A DNA stretch of 11,166 bases from a bacterium (lineage in GTDB: Bacteria; UBP15; UBA6099; JAJRTR01). The DNA lies in contig JAJRTR010000076.1 of assembly GCA_024278215.1 (NCBI GenBank), positions 1-11,166 of the forward strand. The letters run 5' to 3'. The notes beneath the pieces were generated by a model, which was given only the letters and a program-made list of their open reading frames with translations, made no database searches and was not told where the DNA came from. The stretch's first letter is position 1. Every line of letters begins with the position of its first letter. Below, one piece after another: positions 1 through 11,166 of this stretch. A program made the translations under genes and the position numbers.

Positions 1-192
1 AATGTCATAATTTGTTGATCCCCAGTTGGTATAATAGAAGTATAATGTTGGTTTTTGTAAATGATGTATTTGAATTGGATGCGGAAAGTCGACTGTAGCA
101 CCTGGAACATTAAGCAGGTCACTTGTAGTTTGAAAGGTTTTGAATACTTCAATGTTACTTAATCCGTCAGATAAGATTTCCTGATCTGCCAT
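1..192 (-). CDS. Partial hypothetical protein, probable virion component (3' end outside window)
   Basis: An open frame of 64 codons begins at an ATG at 192-190 and runs off the left edge without a stop. The protein begins MADQEILSDGL. The ATG overlaps the TAA stop of the gene before it (sequence TAATG), and a GGAGG-type ribosome binding site lies 11 bases upstream, so the start is well supported and translation is probably coupled. The visible part alternates polar and aromatic residues (for example YFYYTNWG), which suggests beta structure like its upstream neighbours. I recognise no family. Position at the end of a run of beta-rich proteins suggests another capsid, spike or minor structural protein, but this is inference only. 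Base composition is visibly more AT-rich than in the genes at 653-2721. Confidence 0.75.
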   Translation of the reverse strand, partial: MADQEILSDGLSNIEVFKTFQTTSDLLNVPGATVDFPHPIQIHHLQKPTLYFYYTNWGSTNYDI

Positions 193-653
193 TAGCCTAT
201 AAACCTCCAGGTTATTTTCAATTCTCCGGAAATATTATTTAAAGCAGTTAAATCTCTATTGAGTAGCTGAATCCGGACAACATTCGATGTCGCATGATGA
301 CTGAATTTATGAATTCCCTGGTGCTCGAGGTAGAGTCTTCGAGTTAAAATGCTGGGAGTTGTCGTTAGCTCTTTTTCAAAAACTTTAATTTCCAGTTTCG
401 ACGGATTCGCCGCGGGATGTTCCCATCGGATAAGAAAGTCGAAAATCTTGCTGTGTACGGCGTGCAGGTTGACGTTGCCGGCCGGCGCGACGCTCGGCAT
501 GTCCTTCGGAGTCGGCATATCGCGTGCGACTTCCGTGAAACAATCTTTTATGAGAATATAATTCCCAGGCGTGATGACAAAAGTATCGTCATAGATCGTG
601 TATATGCGCTCTGTGGCTTTCGTGTACTGATTCGGAAGGTTATAGAATGGCAT
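192..653 (-). CDS. Hypothetical beta-rich small protein, probable structural protein
   Basis: This 153-residue protein has no signal peptide and no membrane segment. It reads as short alternating hydrophobic strands (FVITPGNYILIKD, IFDFLIRWEH, LEIKVFEKEL, VVRIQLLNRDL, GELKITWRFIG), compatible with one compact beta-sandwich ending in an edge strand at the C-terminus. Its ATG at 653-651 overlaps the TAA of the gene before it as TAATG, and its own TAA overlaps the next ATG in the same way. That places it firmly inside the operon with coupled translation. I do not recognise the family. The size, fold propensity and position next to capsid-like genes suggest a minor capsid, vertex or receptor-binding protein of the virus-like element. 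A non-viral beta-sandwich protein cannot be excluded. Confidence 0.8.
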   Translation of the reverse strand: MPFYNLPNQYTKATERIYTIYDDTFVITPGNYILIKDCFTEVARDMPTPKDMPSVAPAGNVNLHAVHSKIFDFLIRWEHPAANPSKLEIKVFEKELTTTPSILTRRLYLEHQGIHKFSHHATSNVVRIQLLNRDLTALNNISGELKITWRFIG

Positions 654-1246
654 TATTTCTGCATCCTTTCGTCCATCGGGAACATATCGAAAACGAGCCA
701 GCCGGAGGCCGATGCGACGATCTTACCGGAGTCCCAGCCGTCCGCCAGGCGGCGGATATACATTCCGAATTTCTGGTTTTCGTTAATGACAAGCCGGATT
801 TTCAGTTTGCATCCACAAGGCGGATTCTGCGGCACCTCGATAGCGGTTTGATCTCCAAATTGACGCCCGTCGACCATGAAGACCGCAACACAAATGCCTG
901 GCATGAACATATTCGACCAGACAATCTTCGCGTCGTCGATTATAAGCTTGCGCCCCTTCGGGACTGTATATTCGAGTACAGTTACATAGCCGCCTGTGTT
1001 CGTGTCGAATTCATAGAGATTGCAGGTGGAAGTATTCGCCGTAAAAGTCAAAGGTAGCGCAGACTCCGGCTGAAAAGCGACGTCCGGAAGTCGCTTAACG
1101 GTGACTCCGCCCTGGATCTGCCGCGCTATGGGAGTCCCGAGCGTGTCGCGTTCCAGAACATTTTGTTCGGCAGGCATCGCAAGGCCGCGCCGGCCGCCGC
1201 CGATCTGGCTCGGCACATATCCCTTTTGTCCAGGGTAACCCCTCAT
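653..1246 (-). CDS. Hypothetical beta-rich protein, candidate capsid or vertex protein
   Basis: The 197-residue product has a Gly/Arg-rich, probably flexible N-terminus (residues 1-25), then a beta-rich region. Strand-like segments include residues 87-95 (YVTVLEYTV), 99-111 (RKLIIDDAKIVW), 118-126 and 147-155 (KLKIRLVIN). A VPKGRKL turn at 95-101 is of the kind often seen where capsid jelly-roll strands begin, and two close cysteines (CGC, 144-146) follow. A good RBS (AGGAG) sits 7 bases before the ATG, which starts two bases after the previous gene's TGA. The stop overlaps the next start as TAATG. No membrane helix is seen. I cannot name a family. The single-domain beta architecture and its neighbours make a single jelly-roll capsid or penton-like protein the most attractive hypothesis. 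Confidence 0.8.
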   Translation of the reverse strand: MRGYPGQKGYVPSQIGGGRRGLAMPAEQNVLERDTLGTPIARQIQGGVTVKRLPDVAFQPESALPLTFTANTSTCNLYEFDTNTGGYVTVLEYTVPKGRKLIIDDAKIVWSNMFMPGICVAVFMVDGRQFGDQTAIEVPQNPPCGCKLKIRLVINENQKFGMYIRRLADGWDSGKIVASASGWLVFDMFPMDERMQK

Positions 1247-1248
1247 TT

Positions 1249-2061
1249 TCAGACTCCTATCAGGTTCGCGCCGATAAGCGCAAGTTCGCCGGCGTTAAAT
1301 GCGACTGCCGGGTCGTTATATGCGGTGATCGTGATATTGCCATTCGCCCGGAACGGCCGTGTTATCGGCAGCACTCCGGGAAGCTTCCCCGTGCCGCATA
1401 TCGTGCGAGTATCGACCGGCGTATTAAAAAGCGTTTTGCCGGAACTGCTGTCCTCGATCTGTATCTTCCACGGCCACACACGATCATGATTCATATTCAG
1501 GTAGTAGAGCTCGAACGGCTTATCGTTTAGTATCTCGATGGTGTCGGTGATGATCTGCCCGGGAAGAGAAAACGCAATGTCGACATTGTAGGCCGTAAAC
1601 TCCGCCCTCACGTCGTTACGCGCCAGGCTGTTACGTGTATACTCGCCGAGACTCGCCGGTGGCTGCGCCGCCGCGCCGCTCCGGAGCGTCGCGCCCACCA
1701 GATAGATACTTCCGGCGTTCGCCGCAATGAGTCCGTTTCGCGCGTCGATGCGTATAGTCCTGTTACCCGCGAATATGCGGGAGACGGGAAGTATCATAGG
1801 ATACTGGCCGTCGCCCAGCAAATTCACGGATGAACAGAAGTCGCGGAAGACATATTCGTTCGAGGAAGTATCCATAATGTTGAAAACGAATTCGTTCGGG
1901 TGCGAGGATACCAGGTAGTACAACTCGAAGTCTCCACCGCTGAGCAGCACTTTCGAGGCGCTGAGCGATTCGCTTGCCGCCGTAAAATCAAGCGGAAATT
2001 CGTACACATAATAATCTGCCGGGACTGTAACCCTCGGCTGAAGTCTATTCGTAGGTAACAT
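1249..2061 (-). CDS. Tandem-duplicated beta-domain protein, candidate double jelly-roll-like capsid/spike protein
   Basis: The 270-residue protein is built from two copies of one domain, residues about 16-126 and 152-267. The copies share FELYYL (45-50 and 183-188), LPVSRIF versus LPITRPF (91-97 and 231-237), then IRIDARN versus ITITAYN, and they end in LVGATL versus LIGANL. The offset is about 138-140 residues and the linker (127-151) is Ala/Pro-rich. Both halves are almost purely beta in character, with no signal peptide or membrane helix. Start: ATG at 2061 with an AGAGGAG ribosome binding site. A 45-base gap separates it from the gene before, and the next gene starts two bases after its stop. 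Tandem jelly-rolls are the hallmark of double jelly-roll capsid proteins of tailless viruses. At 270 residues this would be a compact example, so a two-domain minor capsid or spike protein is the main alternative. Confidence 0.85.
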   Translation of the reverse strand: MLPTNRLQPRVTVPADYYVYEFPLDFTAASESLSASKVLLSGGDFELYYLVSSHPNEFVFNIMDTSSNEYVFRDFCSSVNLLGDGQYPMILPVSRIFAGNRTIRIDARNGLIAANAGSIYLVGATLRSGAAAQPPASLGEYTRNSLARNDVRAEFTAYNVDIAFSLPGQIITDTIEILNDKPFELYYLNMNHDRVWPWKIQIEDSSSGKTLFNTPVDTRTICGTGKLPGVLPITRPFRANGNITITAYNDPAVAFNAGELALIGANLIGV

Positions 2062-2106
2062 AATGAATACTCCTCTTTATTTGTCGTTATTGCTCGTTAT
2101 TACTCG

Positions 2107-2721
2107 TTACTGGACAGGCCGTTGCAGGAATCCGCCGAGCACGCACATAACCTGCTGCGTGGCTGCCAGATTCACGGGTGCGTTTGTGAACCTGATCGAC
2201 ACGTTGAATGCTTGATTCGGCTGAAGTACGATCGGTTTTGTGAGCTTGAATATACCCGAGGGATTCCGGCTACCATTCTGACCATAGATTTTCTCGAACG
2301 CGGCCGCGCTCGCATCCGCCGCGGCAAAGAACTGTGCGCCGAAACCGCTCGAAAGCAGCTTCACGGGTATTTCCAGATAGGTCTTGTCGCCAATGGTCAG
2401 CACAAGCCAGGTCTCATAGCGGAGCGCCGCGAGTATCTCGTCGGGGTCGTCTGCGAATTTCCCGAATTCGTCGTTGATGCCGACCTGTATTGAATGAATG
2501 CTGAAGCTGTTGCCGGCCGGGAGATTCCCGCCCTGGTCCATGTTCGTATGGCCCTTAGTTTTCTTCGTGCCGCTTATCGGGAGCGGCTGTCCGAATTTCT
2601 GCGTGAAAAAATCCATCTCGACCGTCGTCGCGTCCATCTCGGACGTATCGTATAGCGGCTGCTGGATTATCTGTCCGACGCCTGTCAGACCTGTAGCCTG
2701 GGCGAAGTTTTTAGTTTCCAT
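2107..2721 (-). CDS. Candidate major capsid protein (beta-rich, single domain)
   Basis: The 204-residue protein has a polar N-terminus and a glycine-rich TNMDQGGNLPAG segment (59-70) that leads into a beta strand (FSIHSIQVGI, 73-82). Further strands lie at 102-110 (YETWLVLTI), 114-122 (TYLEIPVKL) and 156-178, which ends FNVSIRF. An Ala-rich stretch at 129-143 could be an inserted helix. An extended N-arm plus a sandwich of about 150 residues is what one expects of a jelly-roll coat protein. AAGGAGA lies 9 bases before the ATG. It is the first of the beta-rich genes and follows the basic proteins, a usual place for an abundant capsid protein. I see no transmembrane segment. The capsid role is inference from architecture and context, and I have no homology search behind it. 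Confidence 0.8.
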   Translation of the reverse strand: METKNFAQATGLTGVGQIIQQPLYDTSEMDATTVEMDFFTQKFGQPLPISGTKKTKGHTNMDQGGNLPAGNSFSIHSIQVGINDEFGKFADDPDEILAALRYETWLVLTIGDKTYLEIPVKLLSSGFGAQFFAAADASAAAFEKIYGQNGSRNPSGIFKLTKPIVLQPNQAFNVSIRFTNAPVNLAATQQVMCVLGGFLQRPVQ

Positions 2722-2763
2722 TTTTCAATCTCTCCTTTTTCGTTTTTTTCTTGATTCTTATGT

Positions 2764-3375
2764 TTATAGATAGCTGTTGTTTGCGAGATAGGATGCAGCG
2801 GGAAGTGATACATACTCGCCGAGTCCCGCGCCGGCGCCGCTCATCTCTGGCAGCATCCGGATATACTCGCCGACTTCGCCGTCGAGATACAGATCGTCCG
2901 CCAGGAACGTATCCGCATACTTCTTGCCAGTCGCCGTGTCAAATAGAGTTATGCCGCCCGAAAGCAAGCCACCGACCACAAGACCGTCGCACAACTGCTG
3001 ATTCTTCTTCTTGCGCCCCAGGAAATTTTCTCCCAGGATGCCGGCCGCTATGCCGGCAATCATCTGCACGCCGCCACGCACATAGCCCGACTGCGATTTC
3101 AGAAACGTATTCACCAGGGCGCGCGCTCCCATGAAGCCGGCCATAACGGCGAGGACCTCCGGCATCAGATATGCCAGGCGTTTCGTCATCGAGGACGGTC
3201 TCGGGTTTCTCCGGACCTTCCGCTTCGTCGCCTTCTTTTTGTATATCTTTTTTGCCGGGTTCCGCTTCGTCTTTTTCTTGGCTGTTTTCTTCTTTTTAGC
3301 CATGCTTGACCCCTTTCTTTTGGTTTTCTTCCTCCCTGCGGTTTTTCTCGGATTCATGATTAGTACACTGTGCAT
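2764..3375 (-). CDS. Lys/Arg-rich protein with hydrophobic Gly/Ala-rich helices, candidate virion membrane or core protein
   Basis: The 203-residue protein has a very basic N-terminal 65 residues (runs of K/R with KRNP and RRNP motifs), then hydrophobic Gly/Ala-rich helices at about 68-88, 101-119 and 131-146, and a polar Gly/Ala/Tyr-rich tail. The design suggests an N-terminus that contacts nucleic acid or acidic lipid head groups and a C-terminal part embedded in or packed against a membrane. There are two plausible starts. ATG at 3375 lies two bases after the previous stop and has GAGGGA upstream. ATG at 3303 (residue 25, MAKKKK) has an excellent AAAGGGG site, and its product would begin like the upstream gene's MAKKK. 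I keep the longer form because the extra 24 residues are also K/R-rich. Family unrecognised. Confidence 0.82.
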   Translation of the reverse strand: MHSVLIMNPRKTAGRKKTKRKGSSMAKKKKTAKKKTKRNPAKKIYKKKATKRKVRRNPRPSSMTKRLAYLMPEVLAVMAGFMGARALVNTFLKSQSGYVRGGVQMIAGIAAGILGENFLGRKKKNQQLCDGLVVGGLLSGGITLFDTATGKKYADTFLADDLYLDGEVGEYIRMLPEMSGAGAGLGEYVSLPAASYLANNSYL

Positions 3376-3377
3376 CT

Positions 3378-3812
3378 TTATCCCTCGATTCCTCGCTCGG
3401 TGATCGTATAATCGCCGCCGATGATGTATAGTCTATTTCCTCGACTGTCGCTGCACAGCAGCGGTTTTGCCTTGTGAAAAACATGCCTGTAAGTCTCTTT
3501 CCCGCGGCGGCCCTTAGCCGCCTTATACTCGACAGCGTGCAGCTCGCCCAGGGACACCAGCACCTTCGGGACACCAGGCACTCGCGCCTTGATAACTTCC
3601 TTCGCGTCGCGCCCCCAGGAGAAGTCTTTGTAAAACGAGTCCGCCCGCCTGAGTTCACGCTCGATGGTCACCCGGGTCGATGTGTTTTTCCGGCTTGGGT
3701 TCTTCTTCTTCGCTTTTTTCGCCGTCGATTTGAGCGCCGGTTTCCGCTTCACGGCATTCTTTCTTGCGACAACTTTTCTTTTTTTCTTCTTTGCGACTTT
3801 TTTCTTCGCCAT
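3378..3812 (-). CDS. Lysine-rich nucleic-acid-binding-like protein with small C-terminal domain
   Basis: The 144-residue protein has an N-terminal tail (residues 1-47) that is mostly Lys/Arg/Ala, beginning MAKKKVAKKKKRK, like a histone tail or viral core protein. A compact domain follows, with strand-like segments VPKVLVSLGELHAVEYK (81-97), a YRHVFHKAKPLL stretch (108-119) and RLYIIGGDYTITERGI (127-142). No membrane helix is present. The RBS is GAGGT, 8 bases before the ATG. It is the first minus-strand gene after the opposite-strand cassette, and its 5' end overlaps the -35 element of that cassette's promoter. Likely role: charge neutralisation or packing of the viral genome, or a ssDNA/dsDNA-binding minor virion protein. 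That role is inferred from composition only. A ribosome-associated or chromosomal histone-like protein is less likely given the neighbours. Confidence 0.82.
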   Translation of the reverse strand: MAKKKVAKKKKRKVVARKNAVKRKPALKSTAKKAKKKNPSRKNTSTRVTIERELRRADSFYKDFSWGRDAKEVIKARVPGVPKVLVSLGELHAVEYKAAKGRRGKETYRHVFHKAKPLLCSDSRGNRLYIIGGDYTITERGIEG

Positions 3813-3819
3813 ATATAAT
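3791..3819 (+). promoter_or_regulatory. Sigma70-type promoter for the plus-strand cassette
   Basis: TTGCGA at 3791-3796, a spacer of exactly 17 bases, and a perfect TATAAT at 3814-3819. The expected transcript start near 3826 leaves a short leader carrying the GAAAGGA ribosome binding site of the gene at 3857. The -35 box lies inside the coding sequence of the divergent basic protein, so the cassette carries its promoter within the neighbouring gene. Firing here would produce transcripts convergent with the main minus-strand operon. Confidence 0.6.
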
Positions 3820-3856
3820 TACCTCAAATTTCAATATTCAGAAAGGACATAAAACT

Positions 3857-4189
3857 ATGAATCAAACACCGCCTTTAGTTCTCGAAATGCAAAATATGAA
3901 GAAATCATTGAAAAGTATTCGTAACTGGATGATCGTTTTATGTTTTTTAGGTATGACATCCATAACACTCTTTTCTGCTGGAAATGCCTATTACATGAAA
4001 TATAAGTTTTCACAGCAACGAAAAGTGATAGAATTACAATCGGAGCAAATAAAGCAAATACAATATCAACAGCTTGCCTATATGAGAAGAAATGAAGAGT
4101 TGAGAAGGCAGATTGCAGAATCACAAAAACAACAAGATACGGCGAAAACAATCGCTGACATAGCAAAGATAATTTTAACATTATTTTGA
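3857..4189 (+). CDS. Small single-pass membrane protein with coiled coil (opposite-strand cassette, gene 1)
   Basis: Start ATG at 3857 with GAAAGGA nine bases upstream; the frame also runs further upstream but without an RBS. The 110-residue product has a basic N-terminus (KKSLKSIRNW), one transmembrane helix at about 23-42, then a Gln/Lys/Glu-rich helical stretch at 50-95 that looks like a coiled coil, and a short amphipathic helix at the end (97-110). The topology, N-in with an extracytoplasmic coiled coil, resembles inner-membrane spanins and some pilus or holin accessory proteins. No catalytic motif is present and I recognise no family. The gene is markedly AT-rich (about 32% GC in 4021-4080 by count) and runs against the surrounding operon from its own promoter. 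This suggests an accessory 'moron'-type or lysis cassette acquired separately. Confidence 0.8.
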   Translation: MNQTPPLVLEMQNMKKSLKSIRNWMIVLCFLGMTSITLFSAGNAYYMKYKFSQQRKVIELQSEQIKQIQYQQLAYMRRNEELRRQIAESQKQQDTAKTIADIAKIILTLF

Positions 4190-4200
4190 GGAGCGATACC

Positions 4201-4374
4201 ATGAAAAAAGGACTCTTGACTCCTGAAGAACTGCACCAGAAGATCAGAGACACAAACAGGGTTGTGAATATAATGTTTTGGATTAATTTCATAATGTTTT
4301 TAAGTCTTTCTGTTTCCATATTTATTCTTTATAATTCAATAATTGATACGATCATGAGACTTTACGCTCAATAA
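4201..4374 (+). CDS. 57-residue single-pass membrane protein (opposite-strand cassette, gene 2)
   Basis: The ATG at 4201 is preceded by GAGGAG at 4188-4193, which overlaps the TGA stop of the previous gene, so the two are translated together. A TTG at 4186 in the same frame would put the RBS inside the coding region and is not preferred. The protein has a polar N-terminal helix (residues 1-20, LTPEELHQKIRDTNR), a transmembrane helix at about 22-44 and a short C-terminal tail. Length and topology would suit a holin-like or small regulatory membrane protein, but nothing specific identifies it. Its last 23 bases overlap tail-to-tail with the 3' end of the minus-strand gene at 4352, a convergent overlap that implies close packing or late insertion of the cassette. 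Confidence 0.75.
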   Translation: MKKGLLTPEELHQKIRDTNRVVNIMFWINFIMFLSLSVSIFILYNSIIDTIMRLYAQ

Positions 4375-4939
4375 GAACCATAGCGCTTAAAGCTGTAACT
4401 CCTCCAACAATCCAAGGTAGATTTTTTGTTATAAATACTTTGGAATTTGTTACAGATAGTAATTCTTCCGTTTTTCTTTTTGCCAGATATGCCTTTGCAA
4501 GATATGTCGTTGGAATTGCGATTATGGCCGCTATGGCAAGTCCTATAACTATCGGAGCAACCCCCAAATTAAGATCGTCAATTGTTTCGTCAGGCACGCC
4601 CGCCACCTTGAAATATGGCCATAGCAGTATTCGCAATCGGTTGTAAGCCTTTTCCGACTCGTGGAGCCTGGCGGCGAACTGCGCCTTCTCCGGGTCATCG
4701 TCCCGCATATAGGTAAGGTTGCGGCGAATCTGAAGGATGTCTCGCTTCATGCTATCGAGCATGTTCAGCATGTTATATGTTCGCACCTGAACCATCTCCC
4801 GGCCATGTCCCTGCTCCACCTGGTGGATGATCTCCACGAGATTATCTTTAACATCCTCGACCGTGCCGGTCGCTCGATGCCACCAGTCTTTTATCGTGTC
4901 CCAGGTTGAGGGTATTGTGTTTGACGCAACGAGAGTCAT
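4352..4939 (-). CDS. Membrane protein with helical N-terminal domain and C-terminal anchor
   Basis: The product is 195 residues from the ATG at 4939, which overlaps the previous gene's TGA as ATGA. An in-frame GTG at 4948 sits inside the AGGTGG ribosome binding site and is rejected. Residues 1-110 are helical and charged (WDTIKDWW, then long amphipathic stretches with coiled-coil character at 50-105). A first transmembrane helix lies at about 126-149 and a second at 173-191, ending in a basic ERKVS tail. It is the last of five consecutive genes whose proteins finish in a membrane helix plus short charged tail, but the only one with two clear helices. Virion membrane protein or membrane-remodelling factor is a reasonable guess. 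The family is not recognised. Its 3' end overlaps the opposite-strand cassette. Confidence 0.82.
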   Translation of the reverse strand: MTLVASNTIPSTWDTIKDWWHRATGTVEDVKDNLVEIIHQVEQGHGREMVQVRTYNMLNMLDSMKRDILQIRRNLTYMRDDDPEKAQFAARLHESEKAYNRLRILLWPYFKVAGVPDETIDDLNLGVAPIVIGLAIAAIIAIPTTYLAKAYLAKRKTEELLSVTNSKVFITKNLPWIVGGVTALSAMVLIERKVS

Positions 4940-5445
4940 TTCTTCCACCTGTCCACAAGAGTGAATGCGAGCACAGAGCCGGCCGCCGCCGCGCCATAAG
5001 CGATATACTTTTTCGGCACCCGCACATTCAGCAGCGGGATTGTCACGTTATCCTCATCCCCTGGCAAAGTAAAAGTTCCCGTCGCGCCGCCTGAAGGATG
5101 CACCGGCGCCGGCGCCGACGGTTTCGGATTGTACACCGGCACACTCGCTCCAGCTTCTTTTTTGCGGAGCCGATCCTGGTACCCGAGCAGCTTGCCGCTC
5201 AGCCCGTTTTTCTGCGCCTGCGTCAGCGCATACCAGTATCTCGACTTGATCGCGTTGTAATACTGCTCAAGATAGTAGTTGTCTGTCCGAGTCGGATTGT
5301 TTACCGATCTATAAAAAACAATATTGAATTTATCAATAAGCCTCTGTATCGCATCCGCCTGCGCTTCAGCCGTCGGCGGCCCGTAATAATTCGTCGCCGA
5401 CCTGCCCACTGTCCGATCTTGTATATACGAAGCTCCGAAGTTCAT
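4936..5445 (-). CDS. Tail-anchored protein with LTxAQ helical module
   Basis: The 169-residue protein has an N-terminal helical region (residues 25-98) that includes the LTQAQ motif (74-78) followed by a basic helix. A Pro/Ala/Gly-rich linker spans 100-128, a short strand VTIPLLN lies at 134-140, and VPKKY (143-147) precedes a single Ala/Gly-rich transmembrane helix (147-164) and a DRWKK tail. There is no signal peptide, so it should insert post-translationally as a tail anchor or enter a viral membrane. The segment around VPKKY closely resembles the IPKDY segment before the C-terminal helix of the protein at 6215-7132. AAGGTGA lies just before the ATG, 15 bases after the previous stop. Its function is unknown. 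I infer a virion membrane-associated protein. Confidence 0.85.
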   Translation of the reverse strand: MNFGASYIQDRTVGRSATNYYGPPTAEAQADAIQRLIDKFNIVFYRSVNNPTRTDNYYLEQYYNAIKSRYWYALTQAQKNGLSGKLLGYQDRLRKKEAGASVPVYNPKPSAPAPVHPSGGATGTFTLPGDEDNVTIPLLNVRVPKKYIAYGAAAAGSVLAFTLVDRWKK

Positions 5446-5460
5446 TATTTCACCTTCCCA

Positions 5461-6213
5461 CTATATTTTTTTGTTGACAACCAGATACAACAGATATACC
5501 CCGACCGCCACAGCCATGTATGGGTAGAACTGTCTAAACACCTTAGGCTGAGTCGCATCATATTCGATGACTGTAGGCTCCGATCGCTGGAGCGGCGGCT
5601 GTGAAGGCCCGACTGGGATAGGATGCTCCGAATGTACAGTTTTAGAAACGTAAGGATCAGTAGGAGAAGGAGGACCTTCAGGATATTGAGAATTAGCAAC
5701 TCTGATGCGCCAGACCTGCCAGGCTGCCTGTATTCTGGATATTTCGGCGGCCGAAAGATGTTTCTTGTTTCTCATCAGAAACGCATGTACCGTTGCTATC
5801 GACTTTAAGGTATTGTCTGATATTGCTGCCTTTTGAACATTCGACAGGAAAGAAACATATATCGGAAGAACTGTATATTTTCTCACAGCATCATTTTTCA
5901 TAGTGTCATCCTCTGTTGAAGTCTTTATTCCTGAAGCGGCCGGTGGAAGCTGCGCCGCTGCATAACGCGCCTTATATGTCCTCCAGGCTTTAAAAAAGCG
6001 AGTCTGAGCTGGAGTTAGTGGCATCTTGTAGATCGTTTTATAGTGCCCACTATGTTTCTTCTTCTCGAAAAAGTCATACATCATCTGATAAGTTTTTGCG
6101 TCGAGCGGTCCGCTATCAGCTATTTTTATAAAGTTCTCTACCTCCGGACATATTTTCGCCTCTCTCGCCCAGTAAGCGGCATCAGCAACGATCTTTTTGT
6201 GTTTTTGCCCCAT
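5461..6213 (-). CDS. Tail-anchored protein with duplicated helical domain
   Basis: The 250-residue protein contains two related helical domains, about 25-92 and 118-184. Each has a helix ending in EKKKH or RNKKH, then LTPAQ (66-70) or LSAAE (153-157), then a Trp-containing helix (KAWRTYKARY, AAWQVWRIRV) and a Pro-rich end. A Pro-rich linker (179-213) leads to a single transmembrane helix at 229-246 and an NKKI tail. No signal peptide and no catalytic motif are visible. The start ATG at 6213 follows the previous TGA by one base and has only a weak GGTAAGTG site, so translation probably depends on coupling. The repeat unit recurs in both neighbouring genes. Likely a structural or membrane-scaffold protein of the element, with function unknown. 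Confidence 0.85.
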   Translation of the reverse strand: MGQKHKKIVADAAYWAREAKICPEVENFIKIADSGPLDAKTYQMMYDFFEKKKHSGHYKTIYKMPLTPAQTRFFKAWRTYKARYAAAQLPPAASGIKTSTEDDTMKNDAVRKYTVLPIYVSFLSNVQKAAISDNTLKSIATVHAFLMRNKKHLSAAEISRIQAAWQVWRIRVANSQYPEGPPSPTDPYVSKTVHSEHPIPVGPSQPPLQRSEPTVIEYDATQPKVFRQFYPYMAVAVGVYLLYLVVNKKI

Positions 6214-6214
6214 A

Positions 6215-7132
6215 TCACTTACCGTTCATCCACAGGTATACCAGCAGCCCTCCGACGCCGACATAGATCACATAATCCTTCGGGATTTCGTTTCCCAGAA
6301 TATTTATAGTTTCTTTAGGCTTCGTCTCCGGCGCGGCCGCGCCCGCCGCGCGCCCGTCGCCAGGCACAGTAACATTCACCGTCGTAGTCGTTGAGGATGT
6401 CGCCGGCGTGCCCGTCGTGCCCGTTCCAGTCGTTTCGGTCGTTTCGGTCGTTCCCGTTGTTCCCGTTGTTCCCGTGCCCGTCGTTCCCGTGCCCTCATAT
6501 AAATTTATTACATGCTCGTATAGCTCCTGACTGATTTCTTTTCTCGCGAGCATATCATTGAGATACATCTTCCAGTCCGCACTACCGGCCTCATGAAGTT
6601 TTTTGATGAATGCCAGTTTTAATGTTTTATTAGTTATTGACGCCCATTTTTCGTCATTTGTCATCTGTGTAGTTCCTGTACTTGTCGTTGTAGTGCCGTC
6701 TCCACCATATGACTGTATTATCTGATCATATTTTTCGTCGCTTATTTGATTTGTGTTTTTTAAAATATCAAGTAATGACCGCCAATCTTTATTAGCGTGA
6801 TGATATTTCATTATTAATAATAATTTTTTAGATAAAGGTGGCTCCGGCTGATTCATATAAAAAACATCACTGTCATGACTCCATTTAGCGAAATTAGATT
6901 CAATACGTGAAATTTGTTCCGGAGTTGCAAGAGATTTTAAATTTTTATATTTTTTATACTGCTCGGGGAGATTTTGCCGCTTTTTCTGTTGATCGTAGTA
7001 ACTTTCAGTTTCCCAGTTTGTATAATTTGCAGCAGCATTAAGCTGTGCATCAATAATGCGGAGAAGTTTTTTGTCAGACTCTACGTCCCCGAAGTCGAGT
7101 ACAGCATCTCTGACATTGTCTAAAAAATTCAT
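6215..7132 (-). CDS. Tail-anchored protein with helical repeats and Thr/Gly-rich stalk
   Basis: The 305-residue protein starts with helical repeats. Segment 68-98 carries ATPEQISRI followed by a Trp helix and Pro-rich end. Two further related segments, about 102-146 and 171-215, share KDW/ADW, then ISDEKYDQII or ISQELYEHVI, and a Gly/Thr exit. Thr/Gly-rich low-complexity stretches follow (146-156 and 214-250). A short strand INILG (275-279) and IPKDY (283-287) precede a single transmembrane helix at 286-301 and a WMNGK tail. AGGAAA is placed just before the ATG, which follows the previous TGA by one base. Much of the gene is very AT-rich (14 of 60 bases GC at 6781-6840), whereas the Thr repeat is GC-rich. 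The layout of head, flexible stalk and C-terminal anchor suggests a surface or lumen-facing stalk protein of a membrane-bound particle. Family not recognised. Confidence 0.87.
   Translation of the reverse strand: MNFLDNVRDAVLDFGDVESDKKLLRIIDAQLNAAANYTNWETESYYDQQKKRQNLPEQYKKYKNLKSLATPEQISRIESNFAKWSHDSDVFYMNQPEPPLSKKLLLIMKYHHANKDWRSLLDILKNTNQISDEKYDQIIQSYGGDGTTTTSTGTTQMTNDEKWASITNKTLKLAFIKKLHEAGSADWKMYLNDMLARKEISQELYEHVINLYEGTGTTGTGTTGTTGTTETTETTGTGTTGTPATSSTTTTVNVTVPGDGRAAGAAAPETKPKETINILGNEIPKDYVIYVGVGGLLVYLWMNGK
6383..6493 (-). repeat. Degenerate tandem repeat encoding the Thr/Gly-rich stalk
   Basis: A short-unit degenerate tandem repeat built on 9-base units such as CGTTCCCGT and CGTTTCGGT (plus-strand sense), in frame with the gene at 6215-7132. 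It encodes GTT, ETT and similar triplets at about residues 214-250. Copy-number change in steps of 9 bases would keep the frame and change stalk length, so slippage could vary the protein between strains. Confidence 0.7.
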
Positions 7133-7133
7133 G

Positions 7134-7736
7134 TCATTTCCTCATCAGAAGAATCAGCGCGAGACCGCCGGCCACCGCCCAGGGCAGATACTGTTCCAGG
7201 TCGCGCTTTGAAATATAATCGCCCTGCGGCTGTCGCGGCCACTCGATATTACCCGGGTCGATCTCCACCGGCTGCCCCTGCGTATAATCGCCCCACACCG
7301 TCCTATCGACAAGCTGCCGCATCGTCGCATCAATCATATCCTGCGTCGGAATAACACCCGTCGCCTGAAGCGACGTCCGCACCAGCCGTTGCAAGTCAGT
7401 CCATTTTTTGCCTTTTATCAATTTTGTCGCCGTCCCTCCGATTTTTGAGGCTATACCCGTAATTGATGATTGAACACCGTCACCCAGAGCACCCACAGCG
7501 CCGAGTCCGATCAGATACGGAAGCCCCTTCAGCGGTTTGTGTAGTATTTTGTGGAAGCCTTTTTTTAGTTTTCGTGCTATTTTTTTGAAAAAACCCGACA
7601 TATTCCCATCATCCAAATAATCGGAATAAGCCCAGGCTTTCATATCAACGACTTGACCGTCCGGAAGCTGAATATCATAAAGACCACTACTCGCCAGAAT
7701 CTCAAGATCATCTTCAGTAAGATTTTTTTTAATCAT
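7134..7736 (-). CDS. Basic, amphipathic protein with C-terminal membrane anchor
   Basis: The product is 200 residues from the ATG at 7736, which overlaps the end of the previous gene by 8 bases. An earlier ATG at 7790 would add 18 residues but overlap the previous gene by 62 bases without a good RBS. After an acidic N-terminal domain (1-47), residues 49-70 form a strongly basic amphipathic helix (FFKKIARKLKKGFHKILHK). A hydrophobic Gly/Ala-rich segment (71-88), a Gly/Ser/Lys-rich part and a helical region (112-146) come next. The C-terminus is a transmembrane helix (183-198) with an MRK tail. The basic helix next to a hydrophobic Gly-rich segment resembles membrane-active peptides, so membrane penetration, pore formation or virion-membrane binding is possible. 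That is inference, and no family is recognised. Confidence 0.83.
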   Translation of the reverse strand: MIKKNLTEDDLEILASSGLYDIQLPDGQVVDMKAWAYSDYLDDGNMSGFFKKIARKLKKGFHKILHKPLKGLPYLIGLGAVGALGDGVQSSITGIASKIGGTATKLIKGKKWTDLQRLVRTSLQATGVIPTQDMIDATMRQLVDRTVWGDYTQGQPVEIDPGNIEWPRQPQGDYISKRDLEQYLPWAVAGGLALILLMRK

Positions 7737-8223
7737 AAAGGAAAAACCGCCGTTCGATATATTTTTCAGGACCTTCGCCAAAATCGACATCTCTAATAGG
7801 GTCCATATCGTAAAAGTCGCGTCCTATAAGAGCCTGAGAATATATGTGATTCCAGACACCTCGCCGTTTTTGGGCTATAACAACGAACCTTGTTTTAATT
7901 CCGACCGATTCAAGTAATGCATTTAGCAATATCACTTGATCATCACAATCGCCGCTTCTAAACTGAATTGTCTGAATCGGAGTTTGCAGAGTCTCAACCC
8001 CTGCAATATCTTTACGGTATTTGATAGTATCACGGACCCAGTTGAATATAGTTTGAGTTTCAGCCATCGCGTCACGTTCGGGAGCCGTCATAATAATTGA
8101 AAGAGCTATCTGTCGTATTTTTGGATTAATCTTAAAATCTTTGACCATCTCCGCCATAGCATTAATAGTGAAAAGAAATTTCTCCATATAATTAGAAAAA
8201 TTATACTTAATCGCTTCGATCAT
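7729..8223 (-). CDS. Transglutaminase-like cysteine protease/amidase superfamily protein
   Basis: The 164-residue protein carries the hallmark transglutaminase-like core. WVRDTIKYRKD (62-72) leads into FRSGDCDDQ (88-96) with the candidate catalytic Cys93, His126 follows in WNHIYSQA, and Asp141 closes the triad in YDMDP. The GDCDD motif followed by a helix (ILLNALLESVG) and a strand (TRFVVIA) is standard for the superfamily. Most bacterial members cleave peptide or isopeptide bonds rather than cross-link. No signal peptide or membrane helix is seen, so it would act in the cytoplasm or inside the particle. CGGAGAC lies before the ATG. It is the first gene after the hairpin region and heads the structural operon, which makes virion-protein maturation or processing, or peptidoglycan-peptide cleavage during entry or exit, plausible roles. 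Superfamily assignment is strong; substrate unknown. Confidence 0.92.
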   Translation of the reverse strand: MIEAIKYNFSNYMEKFLFTINAMAEMVKDFKINPKIRQIALSIIMTAPERDAMAETQTIFNWVRDTIKYRKDIAGVETLQTPIQTIQFRSGDCDDQVILLNALLESVGIKTRFVVIAQKRRGVWNHIYSQALIGRDFYDMDPIRDVDFGEGPEKYIERRFFLYD

Positions 8224-8389
8224 TTATTTTTGTCTCCGTGGCGAGGACGGCGGACTTTTGGATTTCCGCCGCCCCCTGATTCAGGTAAAACACCACAGGG
8301 AAAAAGTCATTTAAAAAGCCCGCGGGACTCACGCCCCGCGGTTGAAACGGGTTGCTATCGGTTGCAATTTTCAACTCCATTATTCGCAT
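8207..8389 (-). CDS. Doubtful small frame across the hairpin region
   Basis: A 60-codon frame bridges the gap between the zinc-ribbon gene and the transglutaminase-like gene, overlapping them by 35 and 17 bases. Neither of its start ATGs (8389, 8380) has a recognisable ribosome binding site. Its middle is made of the two GC-rich hairpins described separately, and the translation shows no domain or membrane helix of note. It may be a chance frame across non-coding structure. I list it because it would otherwise be the only small gene linking the two flanking genes, and it cannot be excluded from sequence alone. Confidence 0.22.
   Translation of the reverse strand: MRIMELKIATDSNPFQPRGVSPAGFLNDFFPVVFYLNQGAAEIQKSAVLATETKINDRSD
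8248..8271. repeat. Hairpin between zinc-ribbon and transglutaminase-like genes
   Basis: A 7-base perfect inverted repeat, CGGCGGA at 8248-8254 and TCCGCCG at 8265-8271, with a 10-base loop. It lies 25 bases upstream of the start of the transglutaminase-like gene, close to its ribosome binding site, so as RNA it could affect translation of the operon's first gene. A short palindrome, CCTGATTCAGG (8275-8285), lies beside it and could be an operator-like site. Confidence 0.5.
8313..8341 (-). terminator. Rho-independent terminator-like hairpin after the zinc-ribbon gene
   Basis: On the minus strand, CCGCGGG and CCCGCGG form a 7-base GC stem around an 8-base loop, followed by GC and TTTTT (8317-8313). 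It sits just downstream of the zinc-ribbon gene's stop at 8355 and would separate it from the transglutaminase-headed operon. On the plus strand the same hairpin is followed directly by TTGAAAC, which resembles the 3' end of some CRISPR repeats, and a hairpin of this kind also occurs at IS200/IS605-type ends. Only one copy is visible, so the terminator reading is preferred. Confidence 0.55.
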
Positions 8390-8966
8390 TTATTTCTTTC
8401 AATATCTTTTCCTCCTCGATCAATTCGAGGAGCGTCTGACGACTCGAAAAGATAAGGTCTTTCGTTTTAATCGAAAGTTCGATGTCGAGATAGTGAATCT
8501 CTCCACATCGCGAACATACCACCCTTGCCGCGCCGCCTGTCAGCGAGACCGTCCCCGTAAGCTCGATGCGATTTCCGCAGCAGATACAATTCACAACGAG
8601 ATTCTCGATCTCAACAGTCAGCATTTTTCCGTTTTGCCCCTTTACTCTTTTTTCCTGTGACACATTCGAATATTTTTTCAGAAACAATTTACTGTCTTCC
8701 CGAACGATCAAAGGGAAAACGCATTCCTTATCAAACGGATTCTTGTTTCGACGCGGCCGCCCCGATCTATCTCTATGCGGCTGAGCATGATGACACGAGA
8801 AAGAAGAACAACTCCCGTAAATAGTCTCGTGACCATAAGGACAAACACGATCGTGATTGCAAGGTTGACGTACCAAGCAATCTTTAACGTGCCCGTCGTC
8901 CCCTAATTCAGATTTTTTAGGTTTTCTCTCCTTCGCAGCAAAAATAAATTCCTTAGCAATAGCCAT
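8355..8966 (-). CDS. Cys/His-rich zinc-ribbon protein, possible regulator
   Basis: The product is 203 residues from the ATG at 8966 with GGGGG six bases upstream; an in-frame TTG at 8972 lies between the two and is not preferred. The N-terminal half has a Cys/His cluster (C30, C36, H38, C42, H46, C53, C58, H59, H60, H64) that could bind one or two metals, then a basic RSGRPRRNK stretch. The C-terminal half has a classical zinc ribbon with C127/C130 and C151/C154 separated by a beta-like turn, followed by a charged helix (about 168-195). No enzyme motif is visible. Such proteins usually bind nucleic acid or other proteins. It stands alone, bounded by an AT-rich intergenic region upstream and a terminator-like hairpin downstream, which fits an independently controlled regulator at the edge of the element. 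Family unknown. Confidence 0.75.
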   Translation of the reverse strand: MAIAKEFIFAAKERKPKKSELGDDGHVKDCLVRQPCNHDRVCPYGHETIYGSCSSFSCHHAQPHRDRSGRPRRNKNPFDKECVFPLIVREDSKLFLKKYSNVSQEKRVKGQNGKMLTVEIENLVVNCICCGNRIELTGTVSLTGGAARVVCSRCGEIHYLDIELSIKTKDLIFSSRQTLLELIEEEKILKEINANNGVENCNR

Positions 8967-9178: not shown

Positions 9179-10990
9179 TTATCGTATATACTCGATACCC
9201 AGCGCACGTAGTCGTTTTCTCGCGAGGTCGGCGCCGTGACTGTAGAGATCGGTTTTGATGGCGTCTTTATACCATTTTATACCGCTGTCGCGGTCATGCA
9301 ATCTATTTTTATAGATGTCACCGATGTGGACGTAGCTCATAGTGTTGTCGGGTTTTATGGCGATGGATTTTTTGTAATAGATTATGGCATTTTCGTAGTC
9401 GCCGATTTCTTCGTAAACTTTCGCGACGAGGTCCTGCTGTTCGAAGTCGTCGGGCTGGAGGTCGGCGGTTATCTTAAAATGTTCGAGTGCATTGGCTTTC
9501 TTGCCGAGTTGATAGTAGATGTCGCCGATTTTATATTGCAGCGCTATGTCGTTTTTATTCGATGGGATCAGCTCGTTTGCTTCCTTATAGAGCCTGAGCG
9601 CGGTTTTTAGTTTACCCGTTGCATAGTTCTGGTTACCGATAAGAATAAGAGAAACTGAAAGTTTTTCTTTATATTTCGAGTTTCCCGGCTTGAGTTTCAG
9701 GTATTTTCGATACTCTTCGGCAGCTTTCCAGTAGTTTTTACCTTTAAAATACATTTCGCCGAGGTCGCGGTGGGTTTCAGGTATTCCAGGCTGTTCTTTG
9801 GTGATTTTCTGATATAGCGGCATTGCTTTTTTTACTCTGCCGGTCTGCCAGTAGATGCGTGCGAGTCCGACTTCGCATGTGGAGTGCGGAGCGGGCAGCG
9901 CTACACATGCTTCGAGTTTTTTCTCAGCCTGCCCTACCCTGTTCACGCGCAGCAACATTGCAGCCTGGAAGTTGTACCACGCTGCGGGCGAAACGCGCGG
10001 GAATAAAAAGAGGAATCCCGGCACAACGAGCAGCAAAGCGGCGATTGCGGCATATACAGGCGTGAGCCTGAACCCCTGCCGGTCCGCCACGGGCGCATAA
10101 GCCATGCTCGACCACAGGATAATTACTCCACTGAGGAAGGGGAACAGCATACCCGCGCCCAGAACTTTTATCAGGGAACGCAGCGCTGACATTTTCTGCT
10201 TACTAACGGGTGGCGCGGTGTTTTTGCTCGCTGCCGGCTCCGGGGGTGTGATCCTGAAAATGTTTATTTCCGGCATAAGCGCAGTTCGTTCCTGCACATA
10301 AGTCTCATATCCGGGGCCGAGTTCGATCATTGCGTTTACAAAGCGAAACCCCATAAGCAACGCCCCGATGCTTATCACAACGGAAAAGAAAGCAAGCAGT
10401 TGCAGCAGAAAAACTCCGATGCCGCGTTGCGAAAGCGCGAAAAAGAAGCTGAACGCAAACACTGCGCTCAGAACGATTCCGGTGGACAACTGCGGCAACA
10501 AGTCGAGTTTGTCAGCGAAAATAAAAATGAAAGGAATAGAGAAAACTTCTACACTTCTGCCGCTCTCGAAGCTGAACCAGGGCAGTACGAGCCCCGGAAC
10601 AAGCAGCACGACACCGGCAAACAGCCGGAAACCGGGAGTTCTAAGCAATGTGGTTACACGATTTCGACCGGCACGCTTCGGCTTTTTGAGTTTTTCATCA
10701 TTCGAGAATTTCGGAGTTTCCGCCTGCTGTGATTTATCCTGATCGGAAGCATCATGAGGCGCGCTCCCGGCTATTTTCGTTATATCCGTTGCTTTATCCG
10801 CAATCTTTTTTTGCGACGTTTTATTGACTGTCGGCTGACGCGCCTGTCGTTTCTGAGCAGGCTTACCGCCCTGCCCTGCTGTCGAATCTCCGGCGGACTT
10901 CTGCTTGTCCTTATTAAGAGCGCTTCCGCAGTTCAAACATATATCGACACCGTCAGGAACATCATTGCCGCAATTGTAACAGTAAGCCAT
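9179..10990 (-). CDS. Zinc-ribbon, multi-pass membrane protein with C-terminal TPR repeats
   Basis: The product is 603 residues from the ATG at 10990, giving MAYCYNCG. A GTG at 10999 would add three residues and is less likely, because an N-terminal zinc ribbon normally starts this way. The ribbon is C4/C7 and C18/C21. A long charged, Gln/Lys/Ala-rich linker follows (about 25-115), then roughly five hydrophobic segments (around 121-140, 150-190, 193-217, 276-299 and 312-331). From about 335 to the end there is a series of TPR-like repeats with the usual pattern of small and aromatic residues (for example LGEMYFKGKNYWKAAEEY and IGDIYYQLGKKANALEHF). It is probably an inner-membrane scaffold presenting TPRs for protein binding; the partner is unknown. 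It appears to be a host chromosomal gene rather than part of the virus-like block. Confidence 0.9.
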   Translation of the reverse strand: MAYCYNCGNDVPDGVDICLNCGSALNKDKQKSAGDSTAGQGGKPAQKRQARQPTVNKTSQKKIADKATDITKIAGSAPHDASDQDKSQQAETPKFSNDEKLKKPKRAGRNRVTTLLRTPGFRLFAGVVLLVPGLVLPWFSFESGRSVEVFSIPFIFIFADKLDLLPQLSTGIVLSAVFAFSFFFALSQRGIGVFLLQLLAFFSVVISIGALLMGFRFVNAMIELGPGYETYVQERTALMPEINIFRITPPEPAASKNTAPPVSKQKMSALRSLIKVLGAGMLFPFLSGVIILWSSMAYAPVADRQGFRLTPVYAAIAALLLVVPGFLFLFPRVSPAAWYNFQAAMLLRVNRVGQAEKKLEACVALPAPHSTCEVGLARIYWQTGRVKKAMPLYQKITKEQPGIPETHRDLGEMYFKGKNYWKAAEEYRKYLKLKPGNSKYKEKLSVSLILIGNQNYATGKLKTALRLYKEANELIPSNKNDIALQYKIGDIYYQLGKKANALEHFKITADLQPDDFEQQDLVAKVYEEIGDYENAIIYYKKSIAIKPDNTMSYVHIGDIYKNRLHDRDSGIKWYKDAIKTDLYSHGADLARKRLRALGIEYIR

Positions 10991-11064
10991 CCGTCTCACC
11001 GTTTTTCCAGATTGGTTTCATAAGAAGAGCCAATTGCAAAATTCTGATTCTGCTGCGGTCGGCT

Positions 11065-11166
11065 GCTATTGTCCATAGCTGCGTTGTCGGCATAAAATCG
11101 TCCTCGACGTACTCTACAAGTACGCCTGCGAGGATTTTGCACCTCCGCCTTGCTCTGAACAATTTC
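11065..11166. repeat. Long imperfect palindrome, MITE/REP-like dispersed repeat (may extend past window)
   Basis: About 50 bases on each side of a 7-base centre (11113-11119) are imperfect inverted copies. The innermost 19 bases (11094-11112 versus 11120-11138) match at 14 positions, bounded by AAAATC...GTAC and GTAC...GATTTT. The outer parts pair ATTGTCCATAGC (11068-11079) with the complement of GCTCTGAACAAT (11152-11163). It lies upstream of the TPR gene. The 11000-11064 stretch between them shows no gene or clear promoter. Palindromes of this size between genes are usually non-autonomous mobile or REP-type repeats with many genomic copies. A frame of 66 codons through it is a by-product of the repeat. 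Confidence 0.65.

Follow-up and report, generated by a model that had tools for sequence, protein, structure and literature searches.

The window analysed here is an entire contig (C46; 11,166 bp) of a 4.55-Mb bacterial metagenome-assembled genome (MAG) of 207 contigs, so that position 1 is a contig end, and it carries a putative viral element adjoining host sequence (Table 1). A minus-strand gene series runs from 8223 to beyond position 1, with structural open reading frames (ORFs) that are all open and tightly packed and a last gene, W0, truncated by the left contig end. The long minus-strand operon described in an earlier note on this DNA is real as a gene series, but it is broken by two membrane ORFs on the plus strand (W7p and W8p) and so does not form a single continuous operon. 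The region of about 1-8223 is very probably the virion-structure module of a tailless icosahedral, internal-membrane virus related to Salisaeta icosahedral phage 1 (SSIP-1), residing in a bacterial chromosome. This reading upholds the proposal in that note of a tailless virus with a membrane, represented here by its structural genes, and builds on the homology of W14 to SSIP-1 gp34, the capsid barrel predicted for W4, and a gene order conserved on virus-like contigs and in another MAG.

Table 1. Features of the window, listed along the minus-strand series and followed by the flank; L023, L037 and L046 denote relatives described in the text.
Feature	Positions	Strand	Description	Basis
W14	7729-8223	-	Transglutaminase-fold protein, homologue of SSIP-1 gp34	PF01841, E=3e-11
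W13	7134-7790	-	C-terminally anchored protein, corresponding in position to the portion that gp34 and its L023 counterpart carry fused to the transglutaminase	Hydrophobic C-terminal segment
W12	6215-7132	-	Duplicated helical domain, T/G-rich linker, C-terminal anchor	Sequence
W11	5461-6213	-	C-terminally anchored protein	Hydrophobic segment
W10	4936-5445	-	C-terminally anchored protein	Hydrophobic segment
W9	4352-4948	-	Two hydrophobic segments; positionally like L046:6579-7139	Position and hydropathy
W8p	4201-4374	+	57-aa membrane protein, opposite strand	AGGAG ahead of ATG; hydropathy 2.24
W7p	3857-4189	+	Small membrane/coiled-coil ORF, opposite strand	Ribosome-binding-site-like AGAAAGGA ahead of ATG
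W6	3378-3812	-	Highly basic protein, family-conserved just before W5	Composition and L046 match
W5	2764-3375	-	Basic N-terminus and hydrophobic region; family counterpart directly precedes the capsid gene	Composition and L046 similarity
W4	2107-2721	-	Putative single-jelly-roll major capsid protein, 204 aa	Homologues and predicted fold
W3	1249-2061	-	Tandem-duplicated β-rich protein; may be a second capsid protein, a penton or a spike	Duplication, L046 similarity
W2	653-1246	-	β-rich protein; L037 counterpart of same length (197 aa), same place	Similarity
W1	192-653	-	Downstream protein of the series	No homologue detected
W0	1-192	-	First part of one more gene, truncated at the left contig end	ORF
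W15	8355-8966	-	Zinc-ribbon protein separating W14 from the host flank, of either viral or host origin	Sequence
W16	9179-10999	-	Zinc-ribbon/TPR protein, host flank of the element	Matches in order-mates
Repeat	11026-11166		Host dispersed repeat in which the contig terminates	~40 genomic copies

W14 contains the core of the transglutaminase-like enzyme that had been suspected at this end of the series, and its best match in the phage collection is SSIP-1 gp34, annotated as a structural protein (E=4e-17). Direct comparison of the two proteins gives 32% identity over 136 aa (E=3e-22), with C93, H126 and D141 invariant. These are the residues expected for catalysis in the transglutaminase fold. 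W14 is also homologous to the N-terminal part of larger proteins in five relatives (L023, L027, L032, L041 and L046), matching L046:8381-9550 with E=3e-21. A weak transglutaminase match to W14 is present in L005, the membrane-containing pleolipovirus Geoglobus acetivorans pleomorphic virus 1 (5297-5479, E=1e-3).

The AlphaFold2 model of W4, built with 11 homologues (alignment A6), reaches a predicted local distance difference test score (pLDDT) of 73 and a predicted template modelling score (pTM) of 0.72 and predicts a β-rich fold with ten listed strands and two short helices; a poor first model from five sequences (pLDDT 43) was discarded. The structure prediction proposed earlier for this gene thus yields a capsid-like β barrel. 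A Foldseek search against the PDB returns one match below 0.001, the capsid chain of Sulfolobus polyhedral virus 1 (SPV1; E=6e-4), and VIA-align likewise places SPV1 first (Z 8.6, 139 residues, root-mean-square deviation 3.7; 5-11% identity). The next VIA-align ranks include proteins of vaccinia (D13), PRD1/PR772, STIV, HHIV-2, HCIV-1 and SH1, with middling Z values of 6.4-7.0 for the SH1, HHIV-2 and HCIV-1 chains. Because the Z values are middling, the capsid-type jelly roll is supported rather than proven. W4 is predicted as one barrel, as opposed to the double-jelly-roll class, and W3 has two repeated domains. A β fold is thus modelled for W4, and we infer one for the four other downstream proteins. 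The top viral model in Foldseek, I1ZBH9 (211 aa), may be an SSIP-1 protein (gp46 and ORF35 are both 211 aa) and was left out of the argument.

Single-protein scans of IMG/VR with W4, W3 or W14 found no relative, whereas a scan with an alignment of W14 and gp34 and scans with DNA motifs did. W4, W3 and W2 have no match in the phage collection, and scanning genomes with an early alignment of capsid proteins returned nothing. The W14-gp34 alignment identified the 44.9-kb IMG/VR contig L023, on which a homologue of W4 is encoded as well (E=7e-10). W4 homologues are present on eight IMG/VR contigs (L023, L027, L028, L029, L030, L032, L033 and L036) and in two other MAGs, on a 10.4-kb contig of 'bacterium CSMAG_1533' (L037, also L046; E=6e-18) and on a 62-kb Planctomycetota contig (L041). 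L029, L030, L036 and L041 are not independent, since their capsid protein sequences are identical. L038-L040 and L051-L053, lacking a W4 homologue, were rejected as chance motif matches.

Gene order is shared across these relatives. The arrangement transglutaminase, anchored proteins, W6-like, W5-like and W4-like is common to L032 and L037, and L033 shares the W6-W5-W4 order, while L027, L029 and L041 carry extra W4 paralogues inverted between the W6-like and W5-like genes. The closest relative, L037/L046, has six collinear counterparts (W14-W6-W5-W4-W3-W2). W6 matches L046:6086-6586 (E=2e-6), and its best match among the 69 proteins of the L023/L027 and SSIP-1 sets is the protein at the W6 position. 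None of 1000 shuffles scores as well as W5 against L046:5421-6065, the second half of W3 against L046:4317-4715, or W2 against its L037 counterpart (E=0.002). W11 has a weak similarity to L046:7142-7882 (z 4.4), and the similarity of W9 to its positional counterpart is not significant (81 of 1000 shuffles). In L037, a rolling-circle HUH-type Rep (PF23343, E=7e-6) is encoded just upstream, to the right, of the transglutaminase, not on the far left, where the earlier note expected the replication genes; this contig also encodes an endolysin-like M15 protein (phrog_894, E=4e-4). With Rep, structural block and endolysin-like gene, L037/L046 (1-10414) is possibly a near-complete ~10-kb virus or provirus, with no terminal overlap. 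L041 encodes a phage-type helicase, an integrase/serine recombinase and a deoxynucleoside monophosphate kinase.

SSIP-1 is tailless, with an internal membrane and two capsid proteins of the vertical single-barrel type (PMC4958249, PMC6356626, PMC6260650), and has been described as a phage with a genome barely resembling anything in GenBank (PMC6356626). It is represented by one isolate, from a salty pond, and is an unclassified double-stranded DNA phage with no formal taxon. In SSIP-1, the transglutaminase-fold structural protein gp34 is followed by small C-terminally anchored proteins and then by gp44-gp48, an arrangement resembling that of the window. Among 57 SSIP-1 proteins, the W4-family profile ranks gp46, gp47 and gp45 first, second and third; the best SSIP-1 match of W5 is gp44, and that of the W3-domain profile is gp47. 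The best-ranked matches of W5, W4 and W3 together reproduce the SSIP-1 gene order, although similarities beyond gp34 are not significant singly. By one significant homologue and by gene order, the element is SSIP-1-like. SSIP-1 differs in being a 43.8-kb free circular phage rather than chromosomal, in having gp34 fused to the anchor part that is encoded separately here (W14 and W13), and in that most of its proteins have no detectable similarity, with its 7-kb gene gp43 lacking a counterpart in the window. Its gp40 is a KaiC/AAA_25-type ATPase.

W13-W9 are five consecutive proteins, each with a hydrophobic C-terminal segment, consistent with the membrane-anchored proteins recognised previously. 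Their best 17-residue Kyte-Doolittle averages are 1.5-2.0, compared with -0.04 to 1.5 for eight other window proteins. The true start of W13 may be an ATG slightly downstream of 7790. Both proteins singled out as highly basic prove so, with lysine or arginine at 43 of 144 residues in W6 and 40 of 203 in W5. The tandem duplication noticed in W3 is also real: the two halves share 32% identity across 120 aa (E=1e-17), well beyond 1000 shuffles. W7p and W8p possess good ribosome-binding sites, and L027 and L041 carry inverted capsid paralogues near the corresponding place. The Planctomycetota locus (L041; G388:C205 27040-47750) holds at least four W4-type capsid paralogues, its main capsid protein being the one identical to those of L029, L030 and L036. 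The larger relatives also encode a GP88-family protein (PF17338) upstream of their transglutaminase gene (L023 418-2088; G388:C205 38881-40671).

The right part of the window is host chromosome, because all six genomes from the order of the host contain a match to W16 (E 2e-45 to 3e-93) and the terminal 141-bp repeat occurs in ~40 nearly identical copies across the host genome. Several other contigs also end in this repeat. The host flank formed by W16 and the repeat supports chromosomal linkage of the element, in line with the integration suggested before, and GC content and codon usage are alike on the viral and host sides of the junction, matching the host. An empty-site comparison is uninformative: the gene following W16 in relatives lies here on a different contig, beside a helicase gene. 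Neither circularity nor exact end repeats were found in the window or L046. W15 is Cys-rich and is followed by a strong terminator-like hairpin with a T-run (8320-8341).

Several known groups invite comparison. Halopanivirales (Sphaerolipoviridae, Simuloviridae and Matsushitaviridae) are tailless viruses with an internal membrane and single-jelly-roll capsid proteins (PMC12642351, PMC12714852), classified in kingdom Helvetiavirae of realm Singelaviria, which was split from Varidnaviria in 2025 (PMC12714852). The W4 model aligns with their SH1, HHIV-2 and HCIV-1 chains, and Simuloviridae, like L037, employ an HUH Rep; in contrast, no sequence similarity was found, no FtsK/HerA packaging ATPase was found here, and a transglutaminase-fold virion protein is not described in their profiles. 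A placement in Helvetiavirae or Singelaviria would reflect a fold-level resemblance of the W4 model. SPV1 (Portogloboviridae), the virus whose capsid chain the W4 model resembles most closely, infects archaea, and the resemblance is at the fold level only. FLiP (Finnlakeviridae) and PM2 (Corticoviridae) are tailless, with an internal membrane and genomes of ~10 kb (PMC6260650), comparable in length to the L037 contig, but have double-jelly-roll capsid proteins, unlike the single barrel predicted for W4. The literature searched, of incomplete coverage, describes neither relatives of SSIP-1 nor a transglutaminase in such viruses.

Together with a virion, its assembly, its membrane and an entry role, we infer a division of labour along the series. 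W4 would act as the major capsid protein, of the vertical single-jelly-roll type, forming the shell with a second capsid protein, while W3, W2 and perhaps W1 and W0 would be further capsid, penton or spike proteins. W3 is a candidate shell partner because the large capsid protein of P23-77 has two stacked barrels (PMC4958249), yet the L037 counterpart of W3 is single-domain. W9-W13 would be inner-membrane proteins of the virion, held by their C-terminal anchors, and the basic stretches of W5 and W6 may link DNA, membrane and shell by contacting DNA or lipid. For W14 we envisage a virion-borne enzyme of the transglutaminase fold, presumably active, serving either cell-wall entry and penetration or assembly and maturation, and the element itself may be active at present.

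A number of observations weigh against assigning the region to an SSIP-1-like virion. W14 is the sole protein with a statistically significant match to an isolated virus; the pairings of W4 with gp45/46, W5 with gp44 and W3 with gp47 rest on rank and position and are not significant alone (P=0.09 for the direct profile comparison of the W4 family with gp45/46). The strongest L046 similarity of W5 is to the membrane protein at 6579-7139, with 5421-6065 ranking second. Some non-viral β proteins also reach VIA-align Z values of 6-7. Of the two major capsid protein types expected from SSIP-1, W4 is the candidate for one and W3 possibly the other, and W4-type paralogues exist in L027 and L041, but no second capsid protein was identified. 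The FtsK/A32-type packaging ATPase anticipated in the earlier note did not materialise, with no FtsK/HerA/A32-type ATPase among the tested proteins of the truncated window, L046 and the larger relatives. The window contains no Rep or integrase, and the L037 Rep has no match in this host genome.

One alternative is a decayed or domesticated remnant, a structural block retained after loss of the replication genes and now inert or serving the host. W15 and host sequence occupy the place where L037 encodes Rep, and codon usage and GC content match the host; the structural ORFs, however, are all open and closely spaced, and replication genes may lie on the missing left side, beyond the contig end. 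We consider such a remnant rather unlikely. A mis-binned or chimeric contig, in which viral DNA was assembled onto or grouped with a genome other than its own, is suggested by the small contig with its broken left end, but the order-conserved host gene and the genome-wide host repeat on the same contig, together with the compositional agreement across the junction, make it highly improbable.

The profile searches that the earlier note advised for every gene recognised the transglutaminase in Pfam but no other window protein, and PHROGs gave weak matches only. Among these, W9 to a minor tail protein (E=0.004) and W14 to a terminase (E=0.07) could hint at a fragment of a tailed phage or gene-transfer agent with unrecognised structural genes. 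Nevertheless, tail, portal, terminase, tape-measure and HK97-type proteins, the hallmarks of Caudoviricetes, have no convincing Pfam or PHROGs match in the window or among 41 proteins of the 62-kb relative L041; for tail, portal, large terminase and tape-measure genes in the window this agrees with the earlier note. With the capsid-type barrel predicted for W4 and the link to tailless SSIP-1, a tailed-phage origin appears very unlikely. A conserved, non-viral cellular surface or secretion locus would account for the transglutaminase core, a domain common in cells that includes plasmid-borne genes of Burkholderia and rhizobia. Yet W4 occurs neither in the remaining genomes of the order nor in ~380 further ones, and the homologues that it has are encoded on viral contigs of IMG/VR and in the neighbourhood of genes for Rep, an endolysin-like protein, integrase and a phage helicase; we give this explanation scarcely any credence.

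Taking the region as an SSIP-1-like virion-structure module, we tentatively propose, at somewhat less than even confidence, that the window and L037 represent a compact (~10-15 kb) lineage of single-jelly-roll membrane viruses of bacteria, with a rolling-circle Rep and a transglutaminase-fold virion enzyme and without an FtsK/HerA ATPase. It might form a taxon of at least family rank across several bacterial phyla that also takes in SSIP-1 and the larger viruses of IMG/VR and Planctomycetota, possibly including packagers of single-stranded DNA.

The locus and its relatives place the orphan phage SSIP-1 in a lineage that extends over several groups of bacteria and can be recognised by its gene order and a capsid signature (QPLYD...TN[LM]...G.L), and the matching gene sets in unrelated bacteria suggest a distribution far wider than the one isolate indicates. 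Annotation pipelines would miss such proviruses because the structural proteins other than the transglutaminase have no convincing Pfam or PHROGs match. The finding bears on the reach of single-jelly-roll viruses (realm Singelaviria, PMC12714852) among bacterial hosts and raises the question whether one branch of them is marked by a virion enzyme with the transglutaminase fold.

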